Source: Pelotomaculum schinkii (GTDB lineage Bacteria > Bacillota > Desulfotomaculia > Desulfotomaculales > Pelotomaculaceae). Taken from it: a DNA stretch of 64,000 nt. The notes beneath the pieces were generated by a model, which was given only the letters and a program-made list of their open reading frames with translations, did no database searches and was not told where the DNA came from. The stretch lies in assembly GCF_004369205.1 (NCBI RefSeq), contig NZ_QFGA01000001.1, forward strand, positions 806,001 through 870,000. The letters run 5' to 3'. Positions 22,480 through 43,986 of this stretch are shown one piece after another (the stretch's first letter is position 1; each line of letters opens with the position of its first letter). A program made the translations under genes and the position numbers.

Positions 22480-23037
22480 TTATTTATTACCCCAGCGGTG
22501 AAATAACATGTTTTCCACACCAATCAGTTCCAGTGCCCGCCCGGCTGAATGGTTGACGATCTCCTGAACAGTTTCCGGACGATGGTAGAAGGCAGGCATG
22601 GGCGGCATGATCACTACCCCGATACGTGACAGTTTTAGCATATTTTCAAGGTGAATAGGGCTCAAGGGAGCTTCTCTCGGCAACAGAACCAGTCTGCGTC
22701 TTTCTTTAATAGCGACATCCGCAGCCCGGGAGATCAGGTTATCCGAATAACCGGACGCAATAGCAGCAAGGGTTTTCATACTGCAGGGAGCAATAATCAT
22801 GCCCTGGTGGTTAAAGGAACCACTGGAGACAACTGCAGCCATATCGTCTTCCGGATAGCAACAGTGGGCCAGTTCCATTACCTGCTCTACCGTATAGTCA
22901 GTTTCAAGTTCAATAGTACGTCTGGCCCAGCGGCTTAAAATGAGATGTCCTTCAATTTGACACTGCCTCAAATATTTTAGAACAGTTATCCCGTAAACAG
23001 CCCCGGAGGCTCCGGAAATTCCAACTACAACTCTCAA
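22480..23037 (-). CDS. ubiX: UbiX-type flavin prenyltransferase
   Basis: UbiX joins dimethylallyl phosphate to FMN to make prenylated FMN, the cofactor of UbiD decarboxylases. It is 185 residues, the usual length. The N-terminal FMN-binding motif VVGISGASGAVYG and the C-terminal region with PMPAFYHRPETVQEIVNH are typical. TTG 23037 is the likely start behind GGGAGAG. It is on the same strand as the catabolic cluster, 363 bases beyond its last gene, and probably supplies the cofactor to the UbiD enzyme encoded at 35.4-36.8 kb. In Bsd/Shd-type hydroxyarylate decarboxylases the UbiX homologue is called subunit B. Confidence 0.9.
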   Translation of the reverse strand: MRVVVGISGASGAVYGITVLKYLRQCQIEGHLILSRWARRTIELETDYTVEQVMELAHCCYPEDDMAAVVSSGSFNHQGMIIAPCSMKTLAAIASGYSDNLISRAADVAIKERRRLVLLPREAPLSPIHLENMLKLSRIGVVIMPPMPAFYHRPETVQEIVNHSAGRALELIGVENMLFHRWGNK

Positions 23038-23090
23038 AAAAACACTCTCCCTTTAAATTTAGTTTGAAGCAACGATTAAATATGCTGAAA

Positions 23091-23181
23091 ATGCAGGTGC
23101 GAATTCATTGGCACAAATGCAACATTGGCTGCCACAAGTTCGGCGCTGGCGCGCCGTGTGCGATTAAAATCGCACCTGCAT
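23091..23181. repeat. Inverted-repeat intergenic element (copy 1)
   Basis: ATGCAGGTGCGA (23091-23102) is an exact reverse complement of TCGCACCTGCAT (23170-23181), enclosing about 67 bases with a GC-rich CGGCGCTGGCGCGCCG core. The motif GATTAAAATCGC(A/G)CCTGCAT and the CACAAGTTC…GCTGGCGCG core recur in opposite orientation at about 53.07-53.15 kb. This looks like a small dispersed repeat family (MITE- or REP-like). It occupies part of the 363-base gap between ubiX and the lyase gene, which otherwise holds no reading frame. Confidence 0.6.
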
Positions 23182-23400
23182 CGCCGGCATTTTCATCATA
23201 CGTAGCGCCATAATAGCGGCGTGTGGAACTACCCGGTTAAGATTTAGAATAAGAAGGTGCTGTTGCCAGGAAAGAACTTGCTGACAAAAAACAGCACCAG
23301 GAAAATATAAATAAACGGGTCTAAGCCGACGACAAATTGATACCGCGGGGCAAGTATCTATTGCTTACACCAAATAAGGCTTGTCTATTTCTCTTGGGAA

Positions 23401-24267
23401 CTAACCTAAAACAAATTTATTTTCCAATTCACGGATCTCCGCCAGGCCGATAAGTTTATTAAACTCGGTAAAGGAAATCATCTGTCTCAAAATATTTTGT
23501 GTCGTACCTGTTTTCCTTAATTCTTCCATCAAATTTTTCACAGCCTGAGCTGTTATGTAAGTCGAGGAAGTCGGGAATATAACAATATGATAGCCCAAAT
23601 ATTCCAACTCCTGAGCAGGCAGGAGCGGCGTCCGGCCCCCTTCAACCATATTCGCCAAAACCGGAACCTTGAAGGTTGATGTAATCTCTTTCATTTCATC
23701 AACAGTCTCCGGCGACTCAATAAACACCACATCAGCCCCGGCTTCTTCATAAGCCCTGCCGCGGCGAATCGCCTCCTCAATCCCCAATACAGTCCTGGCA
23801 TCGGTGCGGGCAATGATAACAAGATCCGGGTTTTGGCGAGCCTCCGCAGCCGCCTTGATTTTGCCGACCATTTCTTCTATTGAAACGACTTGACGCCCCG
23901 TCATGTGTCCGCATTTTTTTGGCGCAACCTGGTCTTCCAATTGAATTGCCGCTACGCCGGCCTTTTCATATAAGCGCACAGTGCGCATTACATTGACGGC
24001 GTTGCCGAAACCGGTGTCCCCGTCAGCAATAACCGGAATATCAAGGGCACTGGCAAAATTGGCAGCCCGCTCCACCATCTCGGTCATGGTTAACAGCCCC
24101 ACATCAGGCATACCCAGATGGCTGGCCGCCTGACCGTAACCGGTCATATAAACGGCTTGAAAACCGGCTTTTTCAATAATCTTTCCTGTTAATACATCGT
24201 GGGCTCCAGGAGCAACCAGTATTTCCCTGGCTGCAAGTAGTTGTCTTAATAGTTTCCCTTTACTCAT
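23401..24267 (-). CDS. dml: 2,3-dimethylmalate lyase-like protein (isocitrate lyase/PEP mutase superfamily)
   Basis: In the nicotinate fermentation of Eubacterium barkeri this enzyme splits (2R,3S)-2,3-dimethylmalate into propionate and pyruvate. It has 288 residues. The metal-binding motif DGDTGFGN lies near residue 85 and the mobile catalytic loop with a cysteine, KKCGHMTGRQ, near 118. Methylisocitrate lyase has nearly the same motifs, so sequence alone does not settle the substrate. The neighbours (methyleneglutarate mutase, methylitaconate isomerase) point to dimethylmalate. ATG 24267 has GAGGAG 8 bases upstream. It is the last metabolic gene of the long minus-strand cluster. Confidence 0.85.
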   Translation of the reverse strand: MSKGKLLRQLLAAREILVAPGAHDVLTGKIIEKAGFQAVYMTGYGQAASHLGMPDVGLLTMTEMVERAANFASALDIPVIADGDTGFGNAVNVMRTVRLYEKAGVAAIQLEDQVAPKKCGHMTGRQVVSIEEMVGKIKAAAEARQNPDLVIIARTDARTVLGIEEAIRRGRAYEEAGADVVFIESPETVDEMKEITSTFKVPVLANMVEGGRTPLLPAQELEYLGYHIVIFPTSSTYITAQAVKNLMEELRKTGTTQNILRQMISFTEFNKLIGLAEIRELENKFVLG

Positions 24268-24288
24268 AGTTGTGACTCCTCTTGACCA

Positions 24289-25722
24289 TTAAATTTTTAT
24301 TTGCAGATTATTAAGGACCAGGCTCAGGGCATCGGCAGGGCACTCTTGGGCCAGAACGCCAACGGCATAAAGTAAATAATTTTTATCAATAAAAAAAATT
24401 GGTTCTTCCGGTAACAGGGAAATCCCGGGATCAGCAAAAGCTTTATTGAGAATCTCATAAACCTTTTCCGGTGGGGAATGGGTAAAAATACCGCCAACCC
24501 CAATAACAGACTTAACTTTGCGTAAATCCCGCCCTATCGGAGTACCGGGCACTATCCCCAGGACCGGATCAAAACTCTGGGACAAATATCCGGCGTGCCG
24601 TTTAACCGCTATTTCAATAGCAGTGATGGCCATAGCCTCGTCAAAGAGCTTCTCCTTCTCCGTAACGCTGATATGTTCCGGCTCTTTTTCCAGGTAATTG
24701 GCGTAAGCCTGAATTTCCCTCGCCAGCTCTTCTCCTTGCAGGCCCACCTTGGCCAGAACCCGGCCGACGCCGGCGGTTTCTATGATACCAGTGGCGCTAA
24801 CCCGCAAACCCAGGTTGCCCTCCACTGTCCGGTAAGAAACCTGCTTTTCGTTTAATACAACCAGCCCTTTTTCTTCAATTGTTAAATCAGCTAAATCAGG
24901 TAAAACCGAGTGGACGTCAGTCGTAGCCCCGCCAATATCAATCACCAGCACACTTCCCAGACCCTCTTGTTCCGGGGCGCCAACCGCTAAAAGTTCGGTC
25001 CCCAGCAAAACAGCTCCGGGGGTTGGCATTACCCTGGCGTCGGAGACAATCTCCAATAACTCCCCCAACCCTTTTGCATGGGTAATTTGCTTGATAAACT
25101 CCCGGTGGATGGCCTCCCGGGCAGGTTTGACTTTGAGTTCGTGAATCGTCGGCATCACATTCGGCACTCTGACGGTTCCAATTCCTGCAGCTTGAAGATC
25201 TTTTTCCACTTGGGGCTGGGCCTCAATATTACCGGCGATAATCACTACTCCCCGGGTCCTGCTTTTTACGATCACCCCGGTATTTTCAAGAAGGGATTCC
25301 GCGTCACCGCCATCAGTGCCGCCCGCCAGGAGGATAATGTCGGGCCTTATTTCCTTAAGGACCTGGATCCGGAAATCCAGCGGAGTCTCATGGGATATAA
25401 CCTCCAGCACCCTGGCCCCGGCGCTCATTGCCACCTCTTTGGCCGCCTTGGCGGTAACCCGCGGCATGTAACCCAGCGCTGCCATACGCAATCCCCCGGC
25501 AGCCGAGCTGGCCGCCAGCGTTTTGACAGAGCTGATGTCCGTGCAGCCCATTTGTTGCGTCAGGTTCTGACGGGCGTTGAGCAAGCCTGTTTCAATATTC
25601 TCTATTGTCGTCGGCGCCTGAGAACGACCGGCAAAAACCAACGCTTTACCCTTGCGGATAAAAGCAGATACCTTGGTATAGGTGCTTCCCACATCATAAA
25701 CTAGCAGATCAACCTGTGCCAT
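24289..25722 (-). CDS. MutL/GlmL-family protein, probable reactivator of the B12 mutase
   Basis: This is an ASKHA-fold ATPase-like protein of the GlmL/MutL family found beside glutamate mutase and methyleneglutarate mutase genes. It is thought to help reactivate or assemble coenzyme-B12 mutases. It has 477 residues. The phosphate-binding loops VYDVGSTYTKVSAF (N-terminus) and VIDIGGATTDVHS (near 230) and the AGGTDGGD motif are visible. It is separated by about 100 bases from the isomerase gene and lies in the same cluster as the mutase. ATG 25722 follows GGGGG by 6 bases. The name is family level; the chaperone role is inferred. Confidence 0.82.
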   Translation of the reverse strand: MAQVDLLVYDVGSTYTKVSAFIRKGKALVFAGRSQAPTTIENIETGLLNARQNLTQQMGCTDISSVKTLAASSAAGGLRMAALGYMPRVTAKAAKEVAMSAGARVLEVISHETPLDFRIQVLKEIRPDIILLAGGTDGGDAESLLENTGVIVKSRTRGVVIIAGNIEAQPQVEKDLQAAGIGTVRVPNVMPTIHELKVKPAREAIHREFIKQITHAKGLGELLEIVSDARVMPTPGAVLLGTELLAVGAPEQEGLGSVLVIDIGGATTDVHSVLPDLADLTIEEKGLVVLNEKQVSYRTVEGNLGLRVSATGIIETAGVGRVLAKVGLQGEELAREIQAYANYLEKEPEHISVTEKEKLFDEAMAITAIEIAVKRHAGYLSQSFDPVLGIVPGTPIGRDLRKVKSVIGVGGIFTHSPPEKVYEILNKAFADPGISLLPEEPIFFIDKNYLLYAVGVLAQECPADALSLVLNNLQIKI

Positions 25723-25824
25723 CAAGTTCCCCCTTAAGACAGCTGTAAAGTTGAATCAGTCTATTGTCATGTCAAAGCTTGGATATGAATTGGACATCCC
25801 TGATGAGCTGAATTTATAGGCTAG

Positions 25825-26958
25825 TTAAAGGTACACGTAACCGTCCATGATCCGGCGCGCCGTACGTCCAAAGGCCGCCCTCTCCAACCGTACCTCATGA
25901 CCTTCTGCCTGGACTTCAACCTCAATATCAATAACTCCGGCCGGATGGCCAATCCGGACCAGAGAGGATGGCATTCCAGCCATTTCGTTGACAATTGTTC
26001 CCGGGATCCTGGCTGCCACCCCTGTACAGGTGGCGCCGGTACCGGCGTAGGTCTTGTGCATAACCTGCATATACATCAGCCTTGACACCAAATCAACCTG
26101 ACCGGCTTTGATTTTGTTGCCGGTCGTAAAAGCAACGTAATCCTGGGGCCCGCTGACGAACGCAATCATCGGAAAAGCGGGAGAGCGTTGTAATGCGTCC
26201 GCCTCATTTTTGGCCATGCCAATAATGACGGCAGTCTTGCCACGGATCTGTTCCAGAAGCGCCAACATCTTTTTGTCACCGTTAATCTCAGACGGGGTTT
26301 CAATACCGGTCAGCCCCAAATCACCGGCCCGTACAAAAACCATCGGATTGGCCACATCCACAATGGATGCTTCCAACTTGCCGAACCCGGCAATATCCAG
26401 GACATCAACCAGGTTGCCGGTAGGTAAAATTTTACCGGTAGCAGCGCCCGCTGTTCCCGCAAAATCCATCATTATTTTGGCGCCGGCGCCGGGGACCCCG
26501 TCGATTTTGTAATCACCCGCCACCATGGCTTTGCCGTTACGCACAGGGACTTCGGCAACCAGAATTTTTCCGGTGTTGGTGTTGTTGATGCGCACCCTGG
26601 TGACCGGTTCTACAGCCCTTACCAGACCTTCATCAATAGCGAAGGGGCCGACTCCCGAGGATATATTGCCACAATTCCCGGAGTAATCTACCAGCGGATC
26701 TGTAATACCGACCTGTCCAAAGGTATAGTCCACGTCGGCATCCGGGCGGGAAGGCGGCCCGATAATCGCTACCTTGCTGGTTAAAGGATCGGCTCCGCCC
26801 AATCCGTCAATCTGCCGCACATCCGGACTACCAAAAATTTCCATGATTTTCCGGTCCCTTTCCCGCGGGTCATCCGGCAAATCATTTTCCTTTAAAAATA
26901 TACCTTTGCTGGTGCCAGCCCGCAAAATAGCGCAGCTAATCCTCCGTATATCAGACAT
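25825..26958 (-). CDS. mii: 3-methylitaconate isomerase (PrpF family)
   Basis: Mii moves a double bond, converting (R)-3-methylitaconate into 2,3-dimethylmaleate. It belongs to the PrpF/diaminopimelate-epimerase-like fold, and the protein here is 377 residues. The conserved GTSKGIFL motif near residue 15, [17 protein letters not shown] near 95 and [13 protein letters not shown] near 310 are seen. PrpF in methylcitrate operons is a close relative, but no methylcitrate genes are present. The partner genes favour methylitaconate. ATG 26958 overlaps the mutase stop by 8 bases and has GAGGGAG at 7 bases. Confidence 0.87.
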
Positions 26959-28807
26959 TTTCATTCTCCCTCTTGCTTAAATAGTCGGAAACCCACTTGA
27001 CAACATCCTGTGGGTTGGTTCCGGGACCAAAGAAACCATCTATACCTAAGAAACCCGTCCCTTTTGTTTTTATTTTTTCTTCGAATAAAGCATGTTCCTC
27101 TTCCTTTTCAGCAATGCGTCCGCCGCCCATGACCAGCACCTTATCCCTGATTTCCAGTTCTTTTAGGCGCCGGTCCAGCCTGGGAAACAAGCTGAGCCCC
27201 AATCCTAAAAGGTTGCTCACGCCGACCACATCCGCTTTAGTCTCGGCAGCCACCTCAGCTACCGTTTCGGGTAAATTCATGCCCCGTAAAAATATGACTT
27301 CATAACCGGACTGTTCAAACACTTCCCGGATAATATTGATACCAACCACGTGGGCGTCTGCCCCAACTGTGGCTAAAAGCACCTTTCCCTTTTGAGTAAC
27401 CTCGGGTTTAGCTTCCACAGCAACTTTTTCTCCGGTAAAGGAAAGTCTCTGTGGAGAAATGTTCACCGGGCCGTAACCAGGCACATAACGGCGAATACCA
27501 TCTTTTCCACGGTGCGTCCGCACCCCTCGCTTCAGGTCCCAACCACCCGCTCTGGGGGCATCCAGGACGCCCTTTTTACCGGCGGAAACAATCCTGTCGA
27601 TCAGCTCCTCGGCCCCGTACTTCAACCATAAACCGGGGCAGATTTCCTCCGGAGACAACTCTCCGGGCAGTTCAAGGGCGGCCGCCAGCACAGCCAATGC
27701 CTCGGTGATAATCTCAGTCTGCCTGCGTTCTATGAAAGGCTCGCTGATTTCGTACGACGCTGTGTTTTCAAAAACATTTTGGGTGGCCCAAATCGCTTTG
27801 GCCATCGAAGAGCCGGTCGGAATACCTACGTTTTCTGCAGCTTTAGGCCGGTAAAAGTTCGCTCCTCCCAGCTTGGCGCTGATGGCCATCCGGGCAAAGT
27901 GGGCTTGCTCGGCAATCAGGTCGGCCGGCGGGTTCTGGAAGGTCTCGGGCACTACAACCAGCGACTCGCTCCACATAACCTGTCTGAAGGCCCGCATCAA
28001 GGCAAGGTCGGCCAAAAGATTAATCCCCGCCACATTAATCTGAAGCGCGCTAAGGGCGCATGGCAGACCGGCATGGATGGCCAGGCCCTCGGACAATAGA
28101 CACATGGCTAAAGCCATGCCGTCGGTTCCGCCGATATTGACAAGGTGCTTGTGGGAATCAGTTTGCACGAAAATATTGTTGTCCGCGCATACCTGAAGCG
28201 CTTTATAGCCGTTTAGTACTTTGGTCCTGTAGTCATGAATACCGCGGCCCCCAAAATGGACATGGATAACCGGGCCTATATCGGTACCGTCAAATCCGGC
28301 AATGAATGAATTGATGATCGACAGATGCGGCGTATCCCCCGTGGCGTTGATCCGCATCGGGTGCTTCGAGCCTCCGCCAAGCCGGACCAATTTCCGCTCC
28401 CCGGACGGCGTAATGCCGCCTTTCCCCCTGGACTGCTCAATTAACTCCGCCCCGTCCAGGGGATCAATATGGCGGGTGGCTTCCGAATGGACAAAATGAA
28501 ACAGGGTTATGCCGAGCTCCCCGGCCGTTTTATACATTTCCAGGGACTCTTTATATGTTTCTTCTCCGGAATTACGGCCCAGGATCGGATTCTGGACGGG
28601 GATTCCGGTCATAGCCGCCCGCCTGCCCAATTCTGTAATCCGGTAACCACTGCGTTCCACCCCGCTGACAACGCGGGGATACGGCTTTGGTAAACCGCTA
28701 ACCGAGCCGTCCAGGCCGATCCTGGGCATCTCCACGCCAAATACTTTTTCGTATGCCTGAACCCTCTCATAGTCATCCAGGATGATTTTTTTAGTTCTTT
28801 CCTGCAT
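26951..28807 (-). CDS. mgm: Coenzyme B12-dependent 2-methyleneglutarate mutase
   Basis: Mgm performs the carbon-skeleton rearrangement of 2-methyleneglutarate to (R)-3-methylitaconate using adenosylcobalamin. The protein is 618 residues. The large N-terminal part is the barrel domain (for example [22 protein letters not shown] near 85-105). The last 140 residues are the B12-binding Rossmann domain with the D-x-H-x-x-G motif (ADAHVVG) that supplies the lower cobalt ligand. It is a single-chain mutase, as in E. barkeri. I chose ATG 28807, preceded by GGGAGGCGGAG. It is tightly followed by mii and then the MutL-like gene. Confidence 0.92.
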
Positions 28808-28876
28808 TATCTCCGCCTCCCAAGAAAATGGCAATCAAGTGGCTCTGTATGGAAGTGCATTAATCCAATGTAAAGC

Positions 28877-30301
28877 CTAGTCAACTAACACAATTCCCAA
28901 CCGCCTGGCTGCTTTCCGCGCCTCCTGCAGGGACGGGCTCGCGTTTTTCAGCGTCAGGCGGGCGCCGCCCCTGTTAAGGGTCTCCACCATTGCATTCTGC
29001 CCGGCAGCAAGTACAGTAACCCGTTGCATCTGGGGTTCATCCACCTGCAGGATTTCCACATTTATTTTCATTTCTCGAACCTTCTGCATAATCTTCCGGT
29101 AGGCCGCGCTGTCATCGGTGCCTACCCCTAAGACCGCCCCCATTAAAATTCCGGGAACGTTAATGCCGCGGCGGGCAAACAATTCAGGATACAACTCAAT
29201 TTTTACGCCTTTGATTTCACCTTTGGCCAAGACATGGGCAATCCGAGCGGCATTTGTGGGCGAACCCACAGCCTGGCTGCTGCCTCCAACCACGGCCTCG
29301 CCAAAAGGTTTGACAATGGAATTTGCTTTTTCCGCTAAAGCACGGGCCTCATGCAAAGCATAAGCCATGGTATCTTTAATTGTTTGCTGTTCCTGTTCTT
29401 TAATCTGGCCGTTTACATAGTAATCAACATCAAGATTTGTCTTAAAAAATGGCTGCATGTATTTAATCACTACCGGTACTATGTGTTGAGCCGATACGGG
29501 ATGAACCGCCGCCGCCATGGCGATCATCACGTCAACCGGCACGTTGACCGGAATGTTGGTATGCAGGGCCAGGTTAGCAGCCAGGTTGCCGATAAGCACT
29601 CCTCCGCCGATATGAGTGGCGCAAAGTCCCGCAACCGTTACCCGGGGAGTACACGGATTACCGATGGTGGGAGACAGGGCCAGGACCACCGCTTTAGCCA
29701 TGGCCTGGGGAGAGCCTTTACGGAGTTCCACCAGGGTTGCCGCGGCAGCAGCCGCCCCGGCGCCAAAGCCTTCCATATTGCAGCCGGTTGAAGTCTTACC
29801 GGCCCGGAAAATGGTGCCCACTTTGAGCATGACAGCTACCGCTCTGGCCAGTTCTTCCTTATCCTCAACAGTTTCTTTCAAGGCCTTGAACAACCCGGTA
29901 TAGGTACACGAATCTCCTGTTCCGGCACAGGGCTGCAGGCCGCATGAATGGTTACCCACCTGAGCGGCCAGAGTATAAACTAAAATTCTATTGATCAAAT
30001 CATCTTCAATTAAGCGTCTGGCAAAGTTTTGCTCTGCCAGTTCTTTGGCTACTTTACCGAATAAAAAGCTTGAGCCGGAGGTAATACCGACTTCAGCAGC
30101 ATAAAGATTATGAGCAAAAGCGTTTATCACAGCATTCAATACTTCTTGTTTTGTCATGGAATTCCGGAACATGGCCTCCGCCAGGACAACCTCGCTCACG
30201 GGCAGATCCAGTTCAGAGGCAATCTCAATAGTCTCGCCAAAGGTTAGACTGCCAATCCGGTACCTTTTTTTTTCAACTAGCTCCAGGATCTTATCCAACA
30301 C
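28877..30301 (-). CDS. hmd: 2-(hydroxymethyl)glutarate dehydratase ([4Fe-4S], serine dehydratase-like)
   Basis: Hmd removes water from 2-(hydroxymethyl)glutarate to give 2-methyleneglutarate. It resembles the alpha part of iron-sulfur L-serine dehydratase. The 474-residue chain carries cysteines likely to bind the cluster in GNHSCGLQPCAGTGDSC (near 130-146), STGCNMEGFG (near 185) and GNPCTPRV (near 235). An extra N-terminal segment of about 80 residues fills the role of the beta region. Placement between mgm and hgd fixes the substrate better than sequence alone, as an L-serine dehydratase could look similar. The start is GTG 30301 or TTG 30298 behind AAGGTGAT. Confidence 0.88.
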   Translation of the reverse strand: MLDKILELVEKKRYRIGSLTFGETIEIASELDLPVSEVVLAEAMFRNSMTKQEVLNAVINAFAHNLYAAEVGITSGSSFLFGKVAKELAEQNFARRLIEDDLINRILVYTLAAQVGNHSCGLQPCAGTGDSCTYTGLFKALKETVEDKEELARAVAVMLKVGTIFRAGKTSTGCNMEGFGAGAAAAAATLVELRKGSPQAMAKAVVLALSPTIGNPCTPRVTVAGLCATHIGGGVLIGNLAANLALHTNIPVNVPVDVMIAMAAAVHPVSAQHIVPVVIKYMQPFFKTNLDVDYYVNGQIKEQEQQTIKDTMAYALHEARALAEKANSIVKPFGEAVVGGSSQAVGSPTNAARIAHVLAKGEIKGVKIELYPELFARRGINVPGILMGAVLGVGTDDSAAYRKIMQKVREMKINVEILQVDEPQMQRVTVLAAGQNAMVETLNRGGARLTLKNASPSLQEARKAARRLGIVLVD

Positions 30302-30324
30302 CAATCACCTTCCGGTTAAGCGCT

Positions 30325-31215
30325 CTATAACCTTACTTCAATACCCAACAATTCCTCCAGCGGTTTAATCACGGCACAGATATCTTCCCGGCCCAGCCCG
30401 GCGGCCCGTGCCTGTTCAAAGATCTGTTGAACCGTGCAGGTCAAAAGCATCGGGACCTTAAGCTCTTTTGCTGTTTGAATCGCTAATTCCAGATCCTTGT
30501 ACTGCAGATCGACGGTAAATCCGGGAGCAAAATTTCCTTTGAAGATAAAATGCGGCATTTTTGCCGCGAGAGCATAGCTATCGCCAGAACTAGCTCTAAT
30601 TACGTCAAACAACGTCTGAGGATTTAATCCTAATTTTGTTCCCAGGACGAATCCCTCGGCCGCCGCCGCCATATTGACAGCCAGCAAAAGGTTGTTGACA
30701 AGCTTGACGGCGTCACCGGCCCCCACGTCACCCACATGGTAAATCTTCTTGCCGATAACCTCCAGCAAAGGGCGGAAACGATTCACCGTTTCCGGCGCTC
30801 CTCCCACCATGATGGTAAGGGCGCCCTCAGTCGCGCCTTTCACACCGCCGCTTACCGGCGCATCCAAGTAATTTAACTGCCGCTTGGAGGCGATTTCGGC
30901 CATTTTCCGGCTGAAGCCGGGCGCTACACTGGACATGTCGATAACTGTCGAACCGGGCTTTGCCCCGGCAAAAAAACCCTGTTCGCCTAGAAGCACTTCT
31001 TCAACAATGGGTCCGTTCGGCAGCATGGTAATCAACACATCCACCTGTCCGGCCAGCTCCTTCGGTGTGGCGGCTCTCACAGCCCCTAAAGCAACCAGTT
31101 CCTGTACCACTTTTTTATTTACGTGGGGATTGACAATCAGGCTGTATCCGCCACGCAGTATATTTATAGCCATCGGTTTACCCATGGCGCCAAGTCCGAT
31201 AAAACCTACCCTCAC
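30325..31215 (-). CDS. hgd: 2-(hydroxymethyl)glutarate dehydrogenase (beta-hydroxyacid dehydrogenase family)
   Basis: Hgd reduces 2-formylglutarate to (S)-2-(hydroxymethyl)glutarate with NADH. It has 296 residues. The N-terminal dinucleotide-binding motif FIGLGAMGKPMA, the substrate motif DAPVSGGVKGATEGALTIM near 118-136 and the catalytic lysine in GDAVKLVNNLLL near 170 are intact. 3-Hydroxyisobutyrate dehydrogenase and tartronate semialdehyde reductase share these motifs; the neighbouring pathway genes identify it. GTG 31215 follows GGGGG by 7 bases. Confidence 0.9.
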   Translation of the reverse strand: MRVGFIGLGAMGKPMAINILRGGYSLIVNPHVNKKVVQELVALGAVRAATPKELAGQVDVLITMLPNGPIVEEVLLGEQGFFAGAKPGSTVIDMSSVAPGFSRKMAEIASKRQLNYLDAPVSGGVKGATEGALTIMVGGAPETVNRFRPLLEVIGKKIYHVGDVGAGDAVKLVNNLLLAVNMAAAAEGFVLGTKLGLNPQTLFDVIRASSGDSYALAAKMPHFIFKGNFAPGFTVDLQYKDLELAIQTAKELKVPMLLTCTVQQIFEQARAAGLGREDICAVIKPLEELLGIEVRL

Positions 31216-31230
31216 CGTTTTTCCCCCTTA

Positions 31231-31809: not shown

Positions 31810-31825
31810 TTTCAGTCCTCCTTTA

Positions 31826-34164: not shown

Positions 34165-34201
34165 TCTTTTACCCACCTCACTTTGTCATGTGGGAAGATA
34201 A

Positions 34202-35362: not shown

Positions 35363-35384
35363 AAGGCATACCTCCTTGGAGGGC

Positions 35385-36782: not shown

Positions 36783-36805
36783 TTAAAATTAGCCTCCTTA
36801 ACCGG

Positions 36806-37033
36806 TTACTTTTTGGGAATATAGATGATATCCAGCATATTTTCCTCTGTCAGCGGCTTGTTCAGTCTGGCCAGAGTGGTATCCTTTGTGCCCTCGGAGA
36901 CTTTGACATACTCCTCGTACTGATAGTACTTGTCACATCCGGGGCAATGAATGGGCGCTTTAAGCTCGATTAAGGTATTGTCCCCGTAAAAGAACTTGCC
37001 GCACCTGGGGCAATTGAAATTAAACATTTTCAT
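36806..37033 (-). CDS. Small zinc-ribbon protein, possible decarboxylase D subunit
   Basis: This is a 75-residue protein with CPRC near residue 8 and CPGC near residue 30, a four-cysteine zinc ribbon, followed by a charged C-terminal half. Size, zinc ribbon and adjacency to ubiD recall the D subunit (BsdD/ShdD/YclD) of Bsd-type hydroxyarylate decarboxylases, made of UbiX, UbiD and a 75-80-residue protein. I did not align them; sequence identity beyond the Cys pattern is not obvious. ATG 37033 follows GGAGG by 10 bases. Confidence 0.65.
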   Translation of the reverse strand: MKMFNFNCPRCGKFFYGDNTLIELKAPIHCPGCDKYYQYEEYVKVSEGTKDTTLARLNKPLTEENMLDIIYIPKK

Positions 37034-37077
37034 TTTTCTTTAACCTCCTTCCATACCCGCAAATTGCACCCGGTTAT

Positions 37078-37959
37078 TTAAAACTCCAGCTGCGCGCCGG
37101 CATTTAAAGGCATAACCTTTTCTTTGAATTCCCGCTGCAAGCGGCACATAGCTTCAAAACCCGTGCAGTGGCCCACAACAAACTTATCAATTTCAAACCT
37201 TTTTAAATGTTCGACAGTCAGTGCCAAACGAGCCGCCGAGGCGCCGGACAGATGCAGGCCGCCCACCACAGCGAGTATGTTTTTGGCGCCAAAGCAGCTA
37301 ACAGCATGCTCGATGGTGTTGATGATCCCCGCATGCCCGCAGCCAGTTACTATAACCAGGCCGGAATCGCTGTGGATGAACAACGCCTGCTCATCTTCAA
37401 AGCCATCCCGTACAAATGTCTCTCCATCCCTTATAAAAAAGCTGCCCTCATCCTCTTCCCATGCATGAACCCTGGGGATCGGCCCGGAAAGCGCAACCCT
37501 CTCGCTCACAGCCAGTGTTTTCCTGTTAAACTTAAATACCGCGCCGGCTTCTTCCAGCTCCTTCACTGAGAAAGGAACACCGATGTAATTCATCCGGGAT
37601 CCGTTTTTCCCGTATTTTTCATCAAAAATGCCCGGGTGGCAAAAAACTTCTGTTTTTCCTCTGGACTGCAACAGGGGCAGCAGCGCTCCGGTATGATCCT
37701 TGTGGCCGTGGCTAATCACTACCTTTTCGATATTCTCAGCCCTGTGTCCGGATTGCTCGATATTACCCAGCAGGGTGCGTCCCCTTCCGGTATCGTATAG
37801 TATTTGCTCTCTCCCGTTGTCAATCAGCACGGCCAGGCCGTGCTCGCCCAGCAGTCCCTGCAAGTTGCCGGGCAAAAACGGAAAGGCCACGCTGTTTTCA
37901 ACAAGAACCGTAAGCTGGATTTTATTCCCCTGAAGATGCTCAACCCCGGCAGTCGTCAT
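37078..37959 (-). CDS. MBL-fold metallohydrolase (methanopterin-synthase-like subgroup)
   Basis: This is a metallo-beta-lactamase-fold protein of about 293 residues. The metal motif H-x-H-x-D-H is present (SHGHKDHTG near residue 78), with later histidines in TGCGHAGIINT and VGGLHLSG and a C-terminal VGHCTG. That pattern marks the subgroup usually annotated as beta-ribofuranosylaminobenzene 5'-phosphate synthase-like. Here, in a catabolic operon, it may instead hydrolyse or oxidise a pathway compound. ATG 37959 has AAGGTGA 7 bases upstream. The substrate is unknown. Confidence 0.82.
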   Translation of the reverse strand: MTTAGVEHLQGNKIQLTVLVENSVAFPFLPGNLQGLLGEHGLAVLIDNGREQILYDTGRGRTLLGNIEQSGHRAENIEKVVISHGHKDHTGALLPLLQSRGKTEVFCHPGIFDEKYGKNGSRMNYIGVPFSVKELEEAGAVFKFNRKTLAVSERVALSGPIPRVHAWEEDEGSFFIRDGETFVRDGFEDEQALFIHSDSGLVIVTGCGHAGIINTIEHAVSCFGAKNILAVVGGLHLSGASAARLALTVEHLKRFEIDKFVVGHCTGFEAMCRLQREFKEKVMPLNAGAQLEF

Positions 37960-38137
37960 ATTCAATTCACCTTCCCTTCTTTTTTTGCCGGCAGTTCAAA
38001 CGTAAAACCATTTCGAAACTGGGCATGGCCTATTACCAACAGATTGCGGCCGGTCAACCAGCCGCAATCTAAAAAAACCGGCCCGTTACCTTGTCTTTCC
38101 CGGCTTATATAACTAACTATACAATGGGCGCCTGCCG

Positions 38138-39154
38138 CTACTTGATCCAGCCTTGTTCTTTGTAGTACTTCAGGGCGCCGGGATGATAGGGTATGCCCAT
38201 ATCCCTGCCCATTTCCTCTTTTTTAGCCAGAGACATAGCGCTGGCAACTGTGGGATAGCGGTCAAAATTCTCTGCTATGGTCTTGACAATGCTGTAGGCA
38301 ACGTCGTCGGGCATATCCTCACGGACGATAATGTTGCAGAGGGTTGCGATGCCATTGACAGGGTAATCCACACCTTTATAGGTTCCCGCGGGTATAGTGT
38401 AGGGAATTGTGCCTGTATTGGACTTGACTATTTGATCAATCGCGGAGTCTGACAGGGACAATAATTTTATCTGCTTTTGTGAGTTGACGTTTACGATATT
38501 GGGCGCCGGACAAATCATCGCGCCGTAAAGAATAGAGTCTATGTGCCCGTCGAGCATTTGCTGGGCTGCCTCGTCAAAACTTATCATCTGGCTCTGAAAG
38601 TCATTATAGGTCAAGCCATAGGCGTCCAGTACCCGCTTGGTGTCCTGTTCCACAGCCGAACCTTTTGGCCCGGGGGTTATCCGCTTGCCCTTCAGCTGCT
38701 CAATAGAGTTGACGCCTGAATCAGCCAGAACTGTTATATGTGTCGGCTCAGGGAAAAGCGTGGCCAAAATACGGAAATTTTTCAACTCACCTCTCTCCTC
38801 AAAAGGCCCTTTGCCTTCCCAGGCATCTCCTGTGGTGGCGGACAGGGAAAAGGCTACCTGCAGTTTCCCTTCGGATACTCCGATAACGTTGGCAAAGCCT
38901 CCTATAGGAGAGGTGGAACCACTAATGTTTGGATTGGCCTTGGTCACATCCTCAAGCATGGCCGTCCCGATTACCTGCCAGGCCCCACCAGCGGGAGCTG
39001 TTCCCCAGGCAACCTGATATTTCTCCGAATTCGCGCCTGACTGTGCTTTTTGCTCTGTTTCCTGCTGAGCGCCCTGGCCGCCGCATCCGGCCATAAGAAA
39101 AATACCCAGCGCTAAAACCGCTATAATGCTATAAATCTTTGTCCTCTTAAACAT
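38138..39154 (-). CDS. TRAP transporter TAXI-family solute-binding lipoprotein
   Basis: This is the extracytoplasmic solute receptor of a TRAP-TAXI importer. It has 338 residues, with a lipoprotein signal peptide ending in the lipobox LMAGC near residue 22. The mature part shows family segments: QVAWGTAPAGGAWQVIGTAMLEDV (read in parts), TGDAWEGKGPF and GKRITPGPKGSAVE near 145. ATG 39154 has GGGAGG 6 bases upstream; the frame extends 30 codons further without support. It is followed downstream by the catabolic genes and preceded by its permease. The ligand is probably the aromatic acid degraded by the cluster. Confidence 0.9.
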   Translation of the reverse strand: MFKRTKIYSIIAVLALGIFLMAGCGGQGAQQETEQKAQSGANSEKYQVAWGTAPAGGAWQVIGTAMLEDVTKANPNISGSTSPIGGFANVIGVSEGKLQVAFSLSATTGDAWEGKGPFEERGELKNFRILATLFPEPTHITVLADSGVNSIEQLKGKRITPGPKGSAVEQDTKRVLDAYGLTYNDFQSQMISFDEAAQQMLDGHIDSILYGAMICPAPNIVNVNSQKQIKLLSLSDSAIDQIVKSNTGTIPYTIPAGTYKGVDYPVNGIATLCNIIVREDMPDDVAYSIVKTIAENFDRYPTVASAMSLAKKEEMGRDMGIPYHPGALKYYKEQGWIK

Positions 39155-39253
39155 TTTTAACCTCCCGGCATTATTTAAATTTAACCATCCGACTTCCTCA
39201 ACACGTACACACAAGCTGGCTTTTAAAACATGGTTATTGATCAACCTCCCTAA

Positions 39254-41152
39254 TTAATATTTATCTCGCTTTGCGCAATCTCTCGCCGGTGCGTAAACTG
39301 CAGCCAAAAGGACGCCCGCCATCAGGACCATACCTATGGAACTCAACCACCAGGACGGCACAATTAATAAAATTGCGGCAATCCCGGCTACAATCCGCTC
39401 CGGCAAGTTTAAATCACGCTTAAAATAGCCTTCACAGGATACGGCCAGGCAAAATACGCCCATACAAGCGGTAATCACGCTTACAATAACATTACCGGCG
39501 GAGCCAAGCAGCAAAAGTGACTGGTCATAAGCAAACATGAAGGGAACGATATAGGCCACCAGCCCCAGACGGGCGGCCACCCAGCCTGTTTTCCAGCCAT
39601 CGGACCCGGCGATGGCAGACGCGGTATATGATGCGGCGGCTACCGGCGGGGTAATCAGGGACAGGCAGGAATAGTAGAAGGCAAACATATGGGCGGCGAT
39701 CGGGGGAAGTCCCAGGGCAATCAAGGCGGGAATAACAGTGGCCACCTGGATAATGTACGCCGGGGTGGTAGGCAGCCCCATGCCCAGGAGCATGGCAATC
39801 AGCATGGCCAGGAACAAACCGATCAGCAAATTCCCGCCGGCCAGGCTGATAAAGGCGGCGCCAAGCCGCTGGCCCAGCCCGGTCAGGTCCACCGACCCCA
39901 CGATTATGCCGGCTGTGGCACAGGAAACTATCACCACCAGCATGCCCATGGCGCCGCTTTCCAGGGCGGAGAGGATGGTCGGCAGGTTTAAACGGGTGGA
40001 CGGACGAAGTTGGCAGGCAACCAGGGCGGTGACGATACCAAGACCGCCGGCCAGCCTGGGTGTGTAGCCGACAAGAAGTAAATAAACCAGGACAAGGATG
40101 GGAATAATCATATGTCCGAAATTCTTCATTGTCTCCTTGATGGTCATTTCCGGCTTCGAGCCTGACAGCTTCAGGCGCCTGGCCTCCAAATCCACGGTTA
40201 CAAAAAGGCTCAGGTAGTAAAGTACGGCCGGGAAAATGGCGTAAATAATGATATCCGAATAAGCAATACCACTGAAAGCGGACATTACAAAGGCGGCCGC
40301 GCCCATGATGGGGGGCATGATCTGCCCTCCGGTGGATGACACGGCCTCCACGGCGGCAGCAAAGCTGTCTTTATAGCCCGCCTTCTTCATCATGGGGATG
40401 GTCACGCTGCCAATAGTGGCCACGTTGGCCGTCGCGCTGCCTGAAATAGTCCCCATGAGCGAACTGGCCACCACGGCCACCTTGGCCGGCCCGCCTACCG
40501 ACCGTCCCGAAAAAGCCGAAGCCACGTTGCTGATTAAAAAGCTCCCGCCGCTACGCACCAAAATCGCCCCAAAGATAATAAACAGGGCTATGTCCGTGGC
40601 CGACACGCCCAGGGGAATGCCGAAAATGCCGCCCAGGGAAAGATAATTAAAATCCAGGACCGCCGTCCAGTGCGACGGCGTCGAATACAGTACTCCGGGC
40701 AGATAAGGAGCCACAAAGGGATATAGCAAAAACACCACACCAATACCGGCTAACCCATTTCCCACAACCCTGCGCGTTGACTCCAATACCAGTATGATGG
40801 CTGCTATGGCGAGGATTATTTCATACCAGCTGAGGGAACTGATCATGGTGAAGCGTTCCGCTGTGACCCAGTCATAAAAGGCAAAAAGATAAGCGACTAC
40901 AGCTGCCAGGGCAATTAACAGCAAAAGGTCAATCCAGCTCACCCCAGCCTTTTTTTCCCCTCTGGAATAGACTAAAAAAACAAGCGCCAAGCCAAGACCC
41001 AGGTGGATGGTCCTCTGCGCCAGGACGTCCAGGCAGCCAAACAGGGAGGTGTATATGTGAAAAAGGGACAAAATCACCCCAATGATCGCTCCCACCCTCT
41101 GGTAGACCGGCCGGTCATGCCAAAACTCATTCCAGGTAGTTAAAGTTACCAA
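39254..41152 (-). CDS. TRAP transporter fused permease (DctQ-DctM fusion)
   Basis: This is the membrane component of the TRAP-TAXI system, with the small and large subunits fused. It has 632 residues and about 16-17 membrane helices. The conserved large-subunit motifs SGSATANVATIGSVTIPMMKKAGY near 235-258 and GMGLPTTPAYI near 455 are visible. It uses a TTG start at 41152 with GGAGG 10 bases upstream, inside the end of the hydroxylase gene, so translation is probably coupled. It would import the substrate with sodium or protons. Confidence 0.92.
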   Translation of the reverse strand: MVTLTTWNEFWHDRPVYQRVGAIIGVILSLFHIYTSLFGCLDVLAQRTIHLGLGLALVFLVYSRGEKKAGVSWIDLLLLIALAAVVAYLFAFYDWVTAERFTMISSLSWYEIILAIAAIILVLESTRRVVGNGLAGIGVVFLLYPFVAPYLPGVLYSTPSHWTAVLDFNYLSLGGIFGIPLGVSATDIALFIIFGAILVRSGGSFLISNVASAFSGRSVGGPAKVAVVASSLMGTISGSATANVATIGSVTIPMMKKAGYKDSFAAAVEAVSSTGGQIMPPIMGAAAFVMSAFSGIAYSDIIIYAIFPAVLYYLSLFVTVDLEARRLKLSGSKPEMTIKETMKNFGHMIIPILVLVYLLLVGYTPRLAGGLGIVTALVACQLRPSTRLNLPTILSALESGAMGMLVVIVSCATAGIIVGSVDLTGLGQRLGAAFISLAGGNLLIGLFLAMLIAMLLGMGLPTTPAYIIQVATVIPALIALGLPPIAAHMFAFYYSCLSLITPPVAAASYTASAIAGSDGWKTGWVAARLGLVAYIVPFMFAYDQSLLLLGSAGNVIVSVITACMGVFCLAVSCEGYFKRDLNLPERIVAGIAAILLIVPSWWLSSIGMVLMAGVLLAAVYAPARDCAKRDKY

Positions 41153-43431
41153 TTTTTTCGGACCTCCGTGTTCTTAGTTCTCAATTCCTTTGTTTTATGG
41201 ACTATGTCTTCCGGCCTTAACGGCAGGTTAAAAAACTGCGCTCCCACGGCCCGGGAAACGGCGTTGGCAATGGCAGCCGCGACCGAAATGGTGGCAGGCT
41301 CCCCTATTCCCACCGCGCCGTAGGGGCCTTTCTGGTCGTTAAGGGGCAGTACAACGCATTCAACCGGCGGGATGTCAAGGGAAGTAAGCAGAAGATAACT
41401 GCTGAATCTGGGGTTTAGCACCTTTCCTTCTTTTAATTTTATCTCCTCTGTCAGGGCGTAACCTGCACCCATGGATACCCCCCCTGCCACCTGCCCTTCC
41501 AGTAAAATTGGGTTGATGGGCCGGCCGATGTTTAAAACGCTGACAAGTTTTTTTAAATGAACTTTCCCGGTACACGCATCGACGCTTAGCCCGGCCAGTT
41601 GCACCCCGTAGGTATAAACGCCATAAGGACTACCCTGACCATTTTCCGGGTCCAGAGATGTTGTCGCATACGTGTGACTTTTGGTGACCTCAAGGTTGAT
41701 AGCCCGGGCCCGGGTCTCCCTGTATATCTCCCTGAAACCAAGATACCCCCTGGAACTGACCAGCCTGGGTTCCCCTGTGCTGGAATCAAACCGCAGATCT
41801 TCCACAGGCACCCCCAAAATGGTTGCCGCCGTCAGGAGCATTAGCCCTCGCCATTCTTCAGCGCCATCCTTGACGGCCTTACCCACTACGGCGGTGAGCC
41901 TGGTGCCCGAAGTGGTGCCTGAATCCAGGGTCTGTCTGGTATCGGCTGAGACAAAACTTACCTGGTCTATTTCCAGCCCCAGGCCTTCCGCCGCTATCTG
42001 TACCAGAACGGTGCCGGAGCCCTGGCCGATGTCGGGCGATCCTACAGCCACCTGCACCCTGCCGTCCTCCAGGAGACGGAAGGTGGCCACCCCTTCATCC
42101 CCCATGCCGGTTCTGCCGTTCCCGTAATAGAAGCAGGCCAATCCCCAGGCCGCTTTTTCCTCCGGATGGCTTGGTGATGGCGGAAAGGCGGCCATTATTT
42201 CCCTTGCTTTGAGCAGCCCTTCTTTCAAGCCGGGCTCATGGTCCACCGCCTGACCGGTGGTAAAAATGTCACCTTTTTTCAAAACATTTTTCATCCTTAA
42301 CTCAACCGGGTCAATACCGAGCTTCCCGGCCAGGCGATCCATCTGTCGCTCACAGGCAAAGGCCACCTGGGGCGTCCCAAAGCCGCGCATGGCCCCGCAC
42401 ACCGGGTTATTGGTCAACACTCCCCATCCTTCCAGCCAGACGTTTGGCACCCGGTACGGCCCCGCCCCATGGATAATCATCCTCTGCATGACCGAAGCGG
42501 TATAGTCTACATACCCCCCGGCGTCACCGATTGCCTCCATTCTTACTGCGATGAGCCTTCCCTGGGCGTCTGCCGCGTGGATATACCTTAATACACAGGC
42601 ATGCCTCTTAGTAGTTGTTTGGATGCTTTCTTCCCTTTCAAGAGTCATTGAAACCGGCCGCCCCGTCTTCCAGCAGAGCAGGGACGCCATACAGTTCAAG
42701 GGCAGGTCGGACTTTCCGCCGAAACTCCCCCCGATATAGGCGGCTGTTACTTGCACCCGTTCCAGCGGCCAGCCCAGGATCCTTGCAATCTCCCTGCGGT
42801 CCAGGTGAACGCTTTTAGTGGAAGACCAGACCAGAATTCCGTCATCCACAGGTTCGGCCAGCACTGCCTCGGGTTCTAGATAGGCGTGTTCCACCCTCGG
42901 GGTGCGGTATTCCCCTCTAACTACCGCGGCTGCCTCCTCTACAGCCGCCGCCCAGTCGCCACGCACCACTTTCTTGTGCCAGCAAAGGTTTCCCTCGGGA
43001 GAAATCTTTACAGCACCGTCCCAAAGCCCCTGTTCGGGTGTTTCAATCACCGGCAGCGCCTGGTATTTTACCGCTACCCGGCCCGCCGCCTCCTCCGCCG
43101 CTTCCTGTGTTTCGGCCGCCACTACAGCCACTGCCTCTCCCAGGAAACGGACCTTCTCTTCCGCCAGGACAAGCTGGTCCTTGATTCCGGTCATGCCCAC
43201 ATGATTTTCACCGGGAATATCACGTGCGGTCAAAACCGCCTGTACTCCCGGAATATCCAGCGCCGGTCCGGTGTCGATTGACAGGATCAGGGCGTGGGCA
43301 TAGGGACTGCGAACAGCTTTCCCAAAGAGCATACCGGGCCTTTTCAGATCTCCCGCGTAAAGGGCCTGCCCGGTAACCTTATCGTAAGCGTCGGGCTTGA
43401 CTATGTTTTTCCCAACCACCCTCAGGGTCAT
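41146..43431 (-). CDS. Xanthine dehydrogenase-family molybdopterin-binding hydroxylase subunit
   Basis: This is the large catalytic subunit of a molybdenum hydroxylase that inserts water-derived oxygen into N-heteroaromatic rings. It has 761 residues from ATG 43431, preceded by AGAGGTGA. The N-terminal hammerhead domain (DAYDKVTGQALYAGD) is followed by Mo-cofactor segments: GGSFGGKSD near 250, AMRGFGTPQ near 365, DIGQGSGT near 470. The catalytic glutamate motif GAVGIGEPAT lies near 725. It is one chain, whereas E. barkeri nicotinate dehydrogenase has this part split in two. The FAD and [2Fe-2S] subunits are not encoded in the window. It is the first gene after the sigma-54 promoter, so it probably starts the pathway by ring hydroxylation. 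Confidence 0.9.
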   Translation of the reverse strand: MTLRVVGKNIVKPDAYDKVTGQALYAGDLKRPGMLFGKAVRSPYAHALILSIDTGPALDIPGVQAVLTARDIPGENHVGMTGIKDQLVLAEEKVRFLGEAVAVVAAETQEAAEEAAGRVAVKYQALPVIETPEQGLWDGAVKISPEGNLCWHKKVVRGDWAAAVEEAAAVVRGEYRTPRVEHAYLEPEAVLAEPVDDGILVWSSTKSVHLDRREIARILGWPLERVQVTAAYIGGSFGGKSDLPLNCMASLLCWKTGRPVSMTLEREESIQTTTKRHACVLRYIHAADAQGRLIAVRMEAIGDAGGYVDYTASVMQRMIIHGAGPYRVPNVWLEGWGVLTNNPVCGAMRGFGTPQVAFACERQMDRLAGKLGIDPVELRMKNVLKKGDIFTTGQAVDHEPGLKEGLLKAREIMAAFPPSPSHPEEKAAWGLACFYYGNGRTGMGDEGVATFRLLEDGRVQVAVGSPDIGQGSGTVLVQIAAEGLGLEIDQVSFVSADTRQTLDSGTTSGTRLTAVVGKAVKDGAEEWRGLMLLTAATILGVPVEDLRFDSSTGEPRLVSSRGYLGFREIYRETRARAINLEVTKSHTYATTSLDPENGQGSPYGVYTYGVQLAGLSVDACTGKVHLKKLVSVLNIGRPINPILLEGQVAGGVSMGAGYALTEEIKLKEGKVLNPRFSSYLLLTSLDIPPVECVVLPLNDQKGPYGAVGIGEPATISVAAAIANAVSRAVGAQFFNLPLRPEDIVHKTKELRTKNTEVRKNW

Positions 43432-43663
43432 TTCACCATCACCTCTTCTTTGAAAAACCATCAACGCATTTCTCTGAAATGATATTTTTTGCCCGTTCAT
43501 ACTTACTTCCGATCATAGTTGATCGAGCAAACTCATCCGGCTCACCCCCCTTAATTGAGAAAAAAGTACATATTTATTCATTATCATAGTGAAAGGAGCT
43601 GTTAACTGCGCCATTGCAGTTCAAGCACGATATCTCCAACTGCTAAGGCCTTATAAACACAAA

Positions 43664-43710
43664 GAGACCATCATTTCGTTCATTCCAGTCTTGAACGAAA
43701 TGATAGTCTC
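43664..43710 (-). promoter_or_regulatory. Long hairpin in the 5' leader of the catabolic operon
   Basis: Two 19-base arms (43664-43682 and 43692-43710) pair around a 9-base loop with a single mismatch that becomes a G-U wobble in the minus-strand RNA. The hairpin lies about 90-135 bases downstream of the predicted transcription start and about 230 bases before the first gene. After it the RNA reads TTTGTGTTTATAAG, a weak T-rich tail. It may be an attenuator, an operator or an RNA-stability element; a terminator-like role is possible but weak. Confidence 0.6.
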
Positions 43711-43809
43711 CATCGACTAAAAAAAGGTCATCCTTAATTTAAACTTCACTGTTTATGTATAACTCGATCGAACAGTGATCTTTTAACGCAAGTTATTATT
43801 TTAATTACT

Positions 43810-43825
43810 AGCAAATACTGTGCCA
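43810..43825 (-). promoter_or_regulatory. Sigma-54 (-24/-12) promoter of the catabolic operon
   Basis: On the minus strand the sequence reads TGGCAC-AGTAT-TTGCT, an essentially perfect match to the sigma-54 consensus TGGCAC-N5-TTGC(A/T). Transcription should begin near 43798 and run into the molybdenum hydroxylase gene 370 bases downstream. A sigma-54 activator gene lies immediately upstream. This is the best promoter assignment in the window. Confidence 0.85.
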
Positions 43826-43986
43826 AAGGAAAAACCGGCTTTATATTGTGTCATAATCCTGTAATAGCCAGAAAAGAACAACCTTTAATCAATTTGCCTG
43901 TAAATGCAAAACAACCTTTTGATTTCAATTTTGCAATAGTCAGCTCATATCCCCACAAAAACACCCAATCTCAGGAGAAAAGCAAT

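Follow-up and report, generated by a model that had tools for sequence, protein, structure and literature searches.

A UbiD-type decarboxylase, a zinc ribbon and a molybdenum hydroxylase subunit joined to nicotinate-fermentation genes in Pelotomaculum schinkii: a candidate operon for a pyridine dicarboxylate

In the nicotinate fermentation typified by Eubacterium barkeri, the canonical Bacillota gene clusters encode Ena, Hnr, UPF0280 and DUF1185, often together with Hgd, Hmd, DmdAB, Mgm, Mii, MutL and Dml, as well as a nicotinate dehydrogenase whose molybdenum (Mo) subunit is usually split between two genes. Cultures able to degrade pyridine dicarboxylates anaerobically have been observed, and the aerobic Alcaligenes UK21 reportedly employs a quinolinate dehydrogenase and then a 6-hydroxyquinolinate decarboxylase, the product of which is said to be 6-hydroxypicolinate. 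A literature search returned no genes described for the anaerobic breakdown of pyridine dicarboxylates and no paper joining UbiD to the nicotinate pathway, the E. barkeri gene-cluster paper itself not being among the matches. Here, a 64,000-nucleotide stretch of the Pelotomaculum schinkii genome (positions 806,001 to 870,000 of contig NZ_QFGA01000001.1; hereafter, the window) was considered, in which 17 minus-strand genes, running from 43500 to 22480, lie downstream of an exact sigma-54 promoter and combine nicotinate-fermentation genes with sequences encoding a UbiD-family enzyme, a zinc ribbon, UbiX and a Mo hydroxylase subunit. An earlier reading of the window from its letters (the original prediction) knew of no described pathway with the combination of UbiD and nicotinate genes, and none was found in our search. 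The explanation favored here, with a probability of about one half (0.52), is that the genes form a sigma-54-controlled operon whose substrate is a pyridine carboxylic acid distinct from nicotinate, most probably a dicarboxylate, which would be hydroxylated and then decarboxylated by UbiD. The most apt description of the operon is that of a known pathway fitted with a new front end.

In the order of transcription, the genes encode the Mo hydroxylase large subunit, TRAP and TAXI transporter proteins, a metallo-hydrolase, the zinc ribbon, UbiD, Ena, Hnr, UPF0280, DUF1185, Hgd, Hmd, Mgm, Mii, MutL, Dml and, finally, UbiX. Intergenic gaps are mostly shorter than 100 bp and several open reading frames (ORFs) overlap, the exception being a gap of 363 bp before UbiX. 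The promoter (TGGCAC-N5-TTGCT; 43810..43825, minus strand) is the single exact match to the sigma-54 consensus in the window, where simple arithmetic predicts about 0.06 by chance, and its first base is the upper limit of the range (22480-43825) assigned to the gene set by the original prediction. The placement of UbiD, a 75-residue zinc ribbon and UbiX in the same run was likewise borne out by model matches, by the two CxxC motifs of the ribbon and by the TIGR00421 match of UbiX. These three had been thought extra to the nicotinate route and, indeed, canonical Bacillota clusters include neither them nor TRAP-TAXI, the metallo-hydrolase or the unsplit type of Mo subunit that accompanies UbiD, all of which the window adds relative to E. 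barkeri. The original prediction had not named the Mo large subunit, TRAP-TAXI, the metallo-beta-lactamase-fold protein, UPF0280 or DUF1185, and had missed the pairing of UbiD with a dedicated, unsplit Mo subunit.

The E. barkeri-type set of hnr, ena, hgd, hmd, mgm, mii and dml is present in the window and forms, with mutL, UPF0280 and DUF1185, one operon, in common with that organism; by contrast, ndhFSLM was not found in the window genome and dmdAB is not in the window cluster. The hnr, ena, hgd, hmd, mgm, mutL-like, mii and dml genes, said by the original prediction to share one strand, were all recovered there, on the minus strand, and their products are approximately 47-78% identical to nicotinate-cluster counterparts in other Bacillota. 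Ena (34202..35407), an enamidase of the amidohydrolase type (PF01979), is 61-69% identical to Ena in most nicotinate clusters, while Hnr, the 6-hydroxynicotinate reductase (32668..34176), bears an N-terminal ferredoxin domain and mostly shares 54-71% with other Bacillota Hnr sequences. Comparison with canonical clusters identified Hgd (2-(hydroxymethyl)glutarate dehydrogenase; 30325..31215), Hmd (2-(hydroxymethyl)glutarate dehydratase; 28877..30304) and UPF0280 (31826..32671). The remaining genes encode DUF1185/AA_synth (31231..31809; PF06684), the B12-dependent 2-methyleneglutarate mutase Mgm (26951..28834; B12-binding C-terminus; 69-73% to canonical Mgm), the PrpF-family 3-methylitaconate isomerase Mii (25825..26964; PF04303), a MutL/GlmL-type mutase reactivation protein (24289..25725; TIGR01319, 318 bits, cut-off 204) and the PrpB-family 2,3-dimethylmalate lyase Dml (23401..24267; PF13714; 63-78% to canonical Dml). 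UPF0280 and DUF1185, the usual companions of Hnr, are ordinary members of Hnr clusters, being found with almost all Hnr genes (also in loci L136-L178). Hnr itself is single-copy in the window genome and was found in 15/398 sampled Bacillota and in 10 of the 113 genomes of the same order.

UbiD (35385..36782, minus strand; TIGR00148, 283 bits, cut-off 245) contains all three UbiD domains (PF20695, PF01977 and PF20696) and the catalytic triad R164/E268/E273 and has a UbiX partner (22480..23037, minus strand; TIGR00421, 259 bits, cut-off 109), as expected of a prenylated-flavin (prFMN)-dependent (de)carboxylase of this family. The window genome has one copy each of UbiD and UbiX, so that neither is an extra copy of a housekeeping counterpart. 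In a tree of 123 sequences, the window UbiD belonged to a clade of 10 (the window, G032, L056, L058, L059 and L061-L065; SH-aLRT 100) that is separate from HmfF (L010), from E. coli UbiD and from a 29-row group containing the S. hydroxybenzoicus VdcC. Assignment as a phenolic acid decarboxylase was rejected given this position and a score of 260 bits against the VdcC cut-off of 650, as was assignment as a housekeeping UbiD or menaquinone decarboxylase, given the tree and scores of 106 bits (PRK10922, cut-off 788) and 156 bits (TIGR03701, cut-off 496). A grouping with either class had been named by the original prediction as grounds for abandoning its proposal, and the phylogeny places the enzyme outside both.

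By sequence and fold, the nearest solved relative is HmfF, the furan-2,5-dicarboxylate decarboxylase. An AlphaFold model of UbiD (pLDDT 82, with weak stretches at 272-280 and 398-441) matched HmfF (Z 40.8) and HudA (Z 37.9), followed by VdcC and Fdc. The position occupied by H297 in HmfF and N318 in HudA is reportedly decisive for heteroaromatic substrates, and HudA N318 touches the ring nitrogen of a bound inhibitor (PMC7976604). In the window UbiD, this position is N310; Asn is also found in G032, L056 and Moorella, and His in the delta and Nitrospirae members. Three to four residues past N310, the clade carries an Ala-His motif where other UbiDs mostly have Gly. Together, these residues appear compatible with a ring bearing N-H, such as a pyridone or a pyrrole, but do not name the substrate. 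Thus, the enzyme differs from HmfF in clade and in having Asn for His, and resembles HudA (PA0254, a pyrrole-2-carboxylate decarboxylase) in its ring-contact Asn and fold, at only about 25% identity. We know of no zinc ribbon or Mo partner of HudA.

That the nearest solved relatives are decarboxylases also bears on the direction of the reaction. Were UbiD a carboxylase, the Mo enzyme would convert pyridine to 2-hydroxypyridine, to which UbiD would add CO2 para to the hydroxyl, yielding 6-hydroxynicotinate. Such a scheme accounts for the Mo subunit, UbiD and hnr together, by our reasoning suits the nucleophilic position 5 of 2-pyridone, much as in the para-carboxylation of phenols, and has precedent in UbiD-type carboxylases, which have been reported or presumed to act on benzene and aniline in anaerobic organisms (PMC5852087, PMC7500099). 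Nonetheless, the conserved TRAP-TAXI suggests an anionic substrate and the cluster is without activating kinase or synthetase genes, such that carboxylation is considered quite unlikely and decarboxylation, as in the favored explanation, is the direction assumed below.

The zinc ribbon (75 residues with two CxxC motifs; 36806..37033, minus strand; identified by a family hidden Markov model (HMM)) recalls VdcBCD, the vanillate/4-hydroxybenzoate decarboxylase of Sedimentibacter and Bacillus, in that UbiX, UbiD and a short two-CxxC ribbon are encoded together in both. VdcD is an allosteric activator that binds beside the active site (PMC8379154). Yet homology of the window ribbon to VdcD was not supported, since no VdcD model match was obtained and the hhalign probability was 5.5%; the window UbiD, in turn, falls in a separate clade and below the VdcC cut-off. 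When an HMM profile of the window ribbon family was searched against genes beside UbiDs, it matched neighbors of nearly all UbiDs of the wider group (the window clade plus the group at about 40%) and of none at VdcC loci, where VdcD occupies the place of the zinc ribbon; no match was found at the HmfF locus (L010). By analogy, the zinc ribbon is predicted to activate UbiD as VdcD does VdcC. This wider UbiD group (e.g., L066-L095) is large and uncharacterized; almost every UbiD in it has as its neighbor a zinc-ribbon gene of some 50-75 codons, and these ribbons are apparently a family of activating subunits without prior description.

The Mo hydroxylase large subunit at the head of the operon (41146..43500, minus strand) is complete, unsplit and related to NdhL plus NdhM, matching PDB entries 3hrd_A (300 bits), 3hrd_B (202 bits) and 1rm6 (308 bits). 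In a tree of 36 sequences, nine UbiD-adjacent Mo subunits formed their own clade (97/97), separate from Hnr-adjacent Mo subunits, though G032 and Desulfarculales genomes hold both kinds; a further split (100/99) divided the two kinds jointly from the remaining Mo subunits in the window genome. Because the branching order of the UbiD-adjacent clade repeats that of the UbiD tree, UbiD and its Mo subunit are co-inherited. Given that genomes with a separate Hnr-adjacent enzyme keep the paired subunit, the pair probably acts on a substrate other than nicotinate, with hydroxylation first.

The window genome (4.4 Mb, 8 contigs, completeness rated 100%) encodes 16 Mo large subunits. The window subunit is 48% identical to canonical NdhL, as compared to 39% or less for the other Mo subunits of the genome that were compared. 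No canonical nicotinate dehydrogenase (ndhFSLM) was found among the 16, those of 919-980 codons being judged by size only, and the only other split Mo enzyme, at 0.99 Mb of contig C2, was rejected as a nicotinate dehydrogenase, being just 33-36% identical to canonical sequences (33% to NdhL). With the operon's Mo subunit being distinct and canonical nicotinate dehydrogenase apparently lacking, the operon may have no role in nicotinate use. The same findings could be accommodated were decarboxylation to come first, with UbiD converting a pyridine dicarboxylate, including pyridine-2,5-dicarboxylate, to nicotinate and the operon's Mo enzyme serving as the organism's nicotinate dehydrogenase: no other nicotinate-dehydrogenase-like Mo subunit is found in the genome and 3hrd, a nicotinate dehydrogenase, is among the best PDB matches. 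In that case, however, possession of both UbiD-paired and separate hnr-adjacent Mo subunits by G032 and several Desulfarculales would be redundant and, by our reasoning, an unhydroxylated pyridine is electron-poor and a poor UbiD substrate. This order of events is deemed improbable, and hydroxylation before decarboxylation is preferred. Separately, tandem 920-codon Mo-hydroxylase genes with identical match statistics were seen elsewhere in the window genome (C4:323855-329829; L193 2926-10943); these, and a repeated 416-codon gene in L192, are read as recent duplications.

The combination of genes recurs. In G032, a 'Desulfovirgula' metagenome-assembled genome (MAG; L022/L060) from another family of the same order, the gene order is Ena, Hnr, Mo subunit, TRAP, TAXI, metallo-hydrolase, zinc ribbon, UbiD (77%) and UbiX, after which comes a canonical nicotinate dehydrogenase with FAD, FeS and split Mo subunits. 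As the same genes thus recur together in a different order, the set reflects more than chance. Within the genus, G097 (L057, the MAG 'Pelotomaculum sp. UBA10960') encodes UbiD and Hnr, its contigs breaking between UbiD and Ena, while G098 encodes neither. A scan of one genome per species revealed 10 UbiD loci at 48-83% identity (L056-L065), namely, those of G032 and G097, a Bacillota MAG (L056), Moorella stamsii (L058), a Nitrospirae MAG (L061), and Desulfarculales and other delta MAGs (L059 and L062-L065). At every locus with enough flank, the zinc ribbon and Mo subunit adjoin UbiD, mostly with TRAP, TAXI and the metallo-hydrolase.

Co-occurrence with hnr, proposed as a check by the original prediction, was convincing in the order to which the window genome belongs, where Hnr is present in 3/3 genomes bearing this type of UbiD vs. 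7/110 others (p 0.0005, or 0.006 when the two same-genus genomes are counted once) and is physically linked as well. Across the UbiD clade, 7 of the 10 genomes have Hnr. In Desulfarculales the association did not hold: Hnr occurs in 14 of 21 genomes, namely, 6/7 with UbiD vs. 8/14 without (p 0.21), and co-occurrence was dropped as general proof after this control.

Such a distribution raises the possibility that the UbiD-Mo-TRAP module has a catabolic role of its own, directed at a different heteroaromatic acid, for instance a pyrrole carboxylate; recruited to a place beside the nicotinate genes, it would be co-regulated with them but would not feed Hnr. Moorella stamsii, Nitrospirae and most Desulfarculales have the module by itself; it adjoins fumarate hydratase and aspartase-like genes rather than hnr in Moorella, it lacks an hnr association in Desulfarculales, and N310 of the window UbiD corresponds to the Asn of the pyrrole-2-carboxylate decarboxylase HudA. 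Against this, no gap separates UbiD from ena, the two frames abutting or overlapping, two genera have ena and hnr interleaved with the module, which in L065 lies directly against Hnr and UPF0280, the Mo subunit groups with nicotinate dehydrogenases, and the window genome, without the module, has no apparent enzyme for making 6-hydroxynicotinate. A separate unit is hence regarded as unlikely, relative to a module that feeds the nicotinate enzymes. The Moorella stamsii locus (L058 2-20310) is of note in its own right, with the module accompanied by aspartase/fumarase, class I fumarate hydratase, a CdaR/PucR-like regulator, an ArgE/DapE deacylase, a cytosine-deaminase-like gene and two TRAP-TAXI systems, in a genome from which hnr is absent; judging from these genes, it resembles another pathway for an N-heterocycle, one that ends in fumarate.

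In the favored explanation, TRAP-TAXI (fused permease, 39254..41152, TIGR02123, 620 bits, cut-off 321; TAXI-family solute-binding protein, 38138..39244, TIGR02122, 246 bits, cut-off 84; both minus strand) would import the pyridine dicarboxylate anion. The operon's Mo hydroxylase, using electron-transfer subunits borrowed from elsewhere, would then oxygenate the ring next to the nitrogen, and UbiD, with its putative zinc-ribbon activator and prenyl-FMN from UbiX, would release the extra carboxylate as CO2 to yield 6-hydroxynicotinate. Hnr would reduce the ring of this product and Ena would open it, whereupon Hgd, Hmd, Mgm with MutL, Mii, a hydratase yet to be matched and Dml would lead to propionate and pyruvate. 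The genes, their linkage, the promoter, the pairing of UbiD with the Mo subunit and an apparent lack of canonical nicotinate dehydrogenase are evident from the sequence; the substrate, the order of hydroxylation and decarboxylation and the direction of the reaction are inferred. Hydroxylation followed by decarboxylation would be common to this route and to that reported for Alcaligenes UK21, the proposed product being 6-hydroxynicotinate rather than 6-hydroxypicolinate. A role for UbiD further down, with an unsaturated acid (methyleneglutarate or dimethylmaleate) as substrate, is judged unlikely, as the UbiD-Mo set occurs unlinked to the lower pathway.

The substrate of Hnr must bear a carboxylate at C3 and oxygen at C6; were oxygenation to come first, C6 would therefore have to be free and the lost carboxylate be at C2, C4 or C5. 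By this reasoning, only quinolinate (2,3), cinchomeronate (3,4) and dinicotinate (3,5) would give 6-hydroxynicotinate after initial hydroxylation, and pyridine-2,5-dicarboxylate would be possible solely with decarboxylation first. Quinolinate is the sole common natural metabolite that we know of among the three, and dinicotinate would be chemically the easiest. Of the substrates offered by the original prediction, a dicarboxylate in general is favored by the UbiD type, operon membership in two genera and kinship with HmfF, but pyridine-2,5-dicarboxylate falls away if hydroxylation comes first. More broadly, and at somewhat less than even odds, a fixed pair of Mo hydroxylase and ribbon-activated UbiD would act on a pyridine dicarboxylate to feed 6-hydroxynicotinate to the nicotinate enzymes; Moorella, Nitrospirae and Desulfarculales would use this pair for related heteroaromatic acids.

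Several observations weigh against the favored explanation. FAD and FeS subunits were not found beside the window Mo subunit and none was clearly matched elsewhere in the genome; no frame of 43351-44120 encodes a FeS subunit hidden upstream, and an orphan FAD gene at 0.88 Mb of C2 (L200 9575-10237) was rejected as partner, being fragmentary and with no Mo subunit near. Also missing is dmdAB (dimethylmaleate hydratase), for which only LeuC-like (43-48%) and aconitase-like genes were seen elsewhere in the genome; its absence between hmd and mgm (26951-30304) is shared by L169 and L170. Moreover, hnr is absent from Moorella stamsii, L061 and L056, although all three encode UbiD with the zinc ribbon and the first two also the Mo subunit, an ArgE/DapE-type deacylase being found in the UbiD cluster instead, such that the UbiD-Mo pair does not always feed Hnr. 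The occurrence of Hnr with UbiD in Desulfarculales is not above background, the differences in structural Z among UbiD relatives are small, and, by our reasoning, the C2 carboxylate of 6-hydroxyquinolinate is not at the easiest pyridone position from which to be lost. The dicarboxylate reading is the best of those considered yet unproven, and the stronger, new point is the co-inherited set of Mo hydroxylase, UbiD and zinc ribbon.

If the favored explanation is true, the operon represents an anaerobic route without earlier description, on a pyridine acid other than nicotinate, perhaps quinolinate. The operon offers named candidate genes for the transport, hydroxylation and decarboxylation of pyridine dicarboxylates. 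A subgroup of UbiD is delimited as well, distinguished by a predicted activating subunit of its own and by co-inheritance with a Mo hydroxylase, and is of use for studying the biochemistry of prFMN on N-heterocycles.

Upstream of the operon, a PrdR/PrpR-type sigma-54 enhancer-binding regulator is encoded on the same strand (44064..45680; NCBIfam TF_PrdR, 388 bits, below the cut-off of 795). Canonical nicotinate clusters are also flanked by regulators resembling this protein, which is likely the activator of the operon. Between the regulator gene and the operon lies a perfect inverted repeat with 16-bp arms and a 7-bp loop (43986..44024), a candidate upstream activator site, and between the promoter and the first gene a second inverted repeat with 13-bp arms (43670..43704, minus strand) could form a leader hairpin. 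The metallo-beta-lactamase-fold hydrolase (37078..37965, minus strand; PF00753) is kept in the module of other genomes.

Two further points concern Hnr clusters. UPF0280, which is similar to ApbE flavin transferases, may be the flavinylation factor of Hnr, given this likeness and the covalent flavin that Hnr reportedly carries. In addition, an aldehyde dehydrogenase of the CoA-acylating methylmalonate-semialdehyde type (TIGR01722, above cut-off) is encoded in the Hnr cluster of G032 (L022:4173-5801), with similar ORFs in L162, L165, L172, L176 and L195 being recognized from their N-termini alone. As 2-formylglutarate is a malonate-semialdehyde derivative, such an enzyme could convert it to glutaryl-CoA and CO2, replacing the Hgd-Hmd-Mgm route.

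Finally, positions 59630-63020 of the window encode another PrdR-like sigma-54 regulator and, after it, a KaiC-type protein, adjoining 2-oxoacid:acceptor oxidoreductase genes that begin at 56809.

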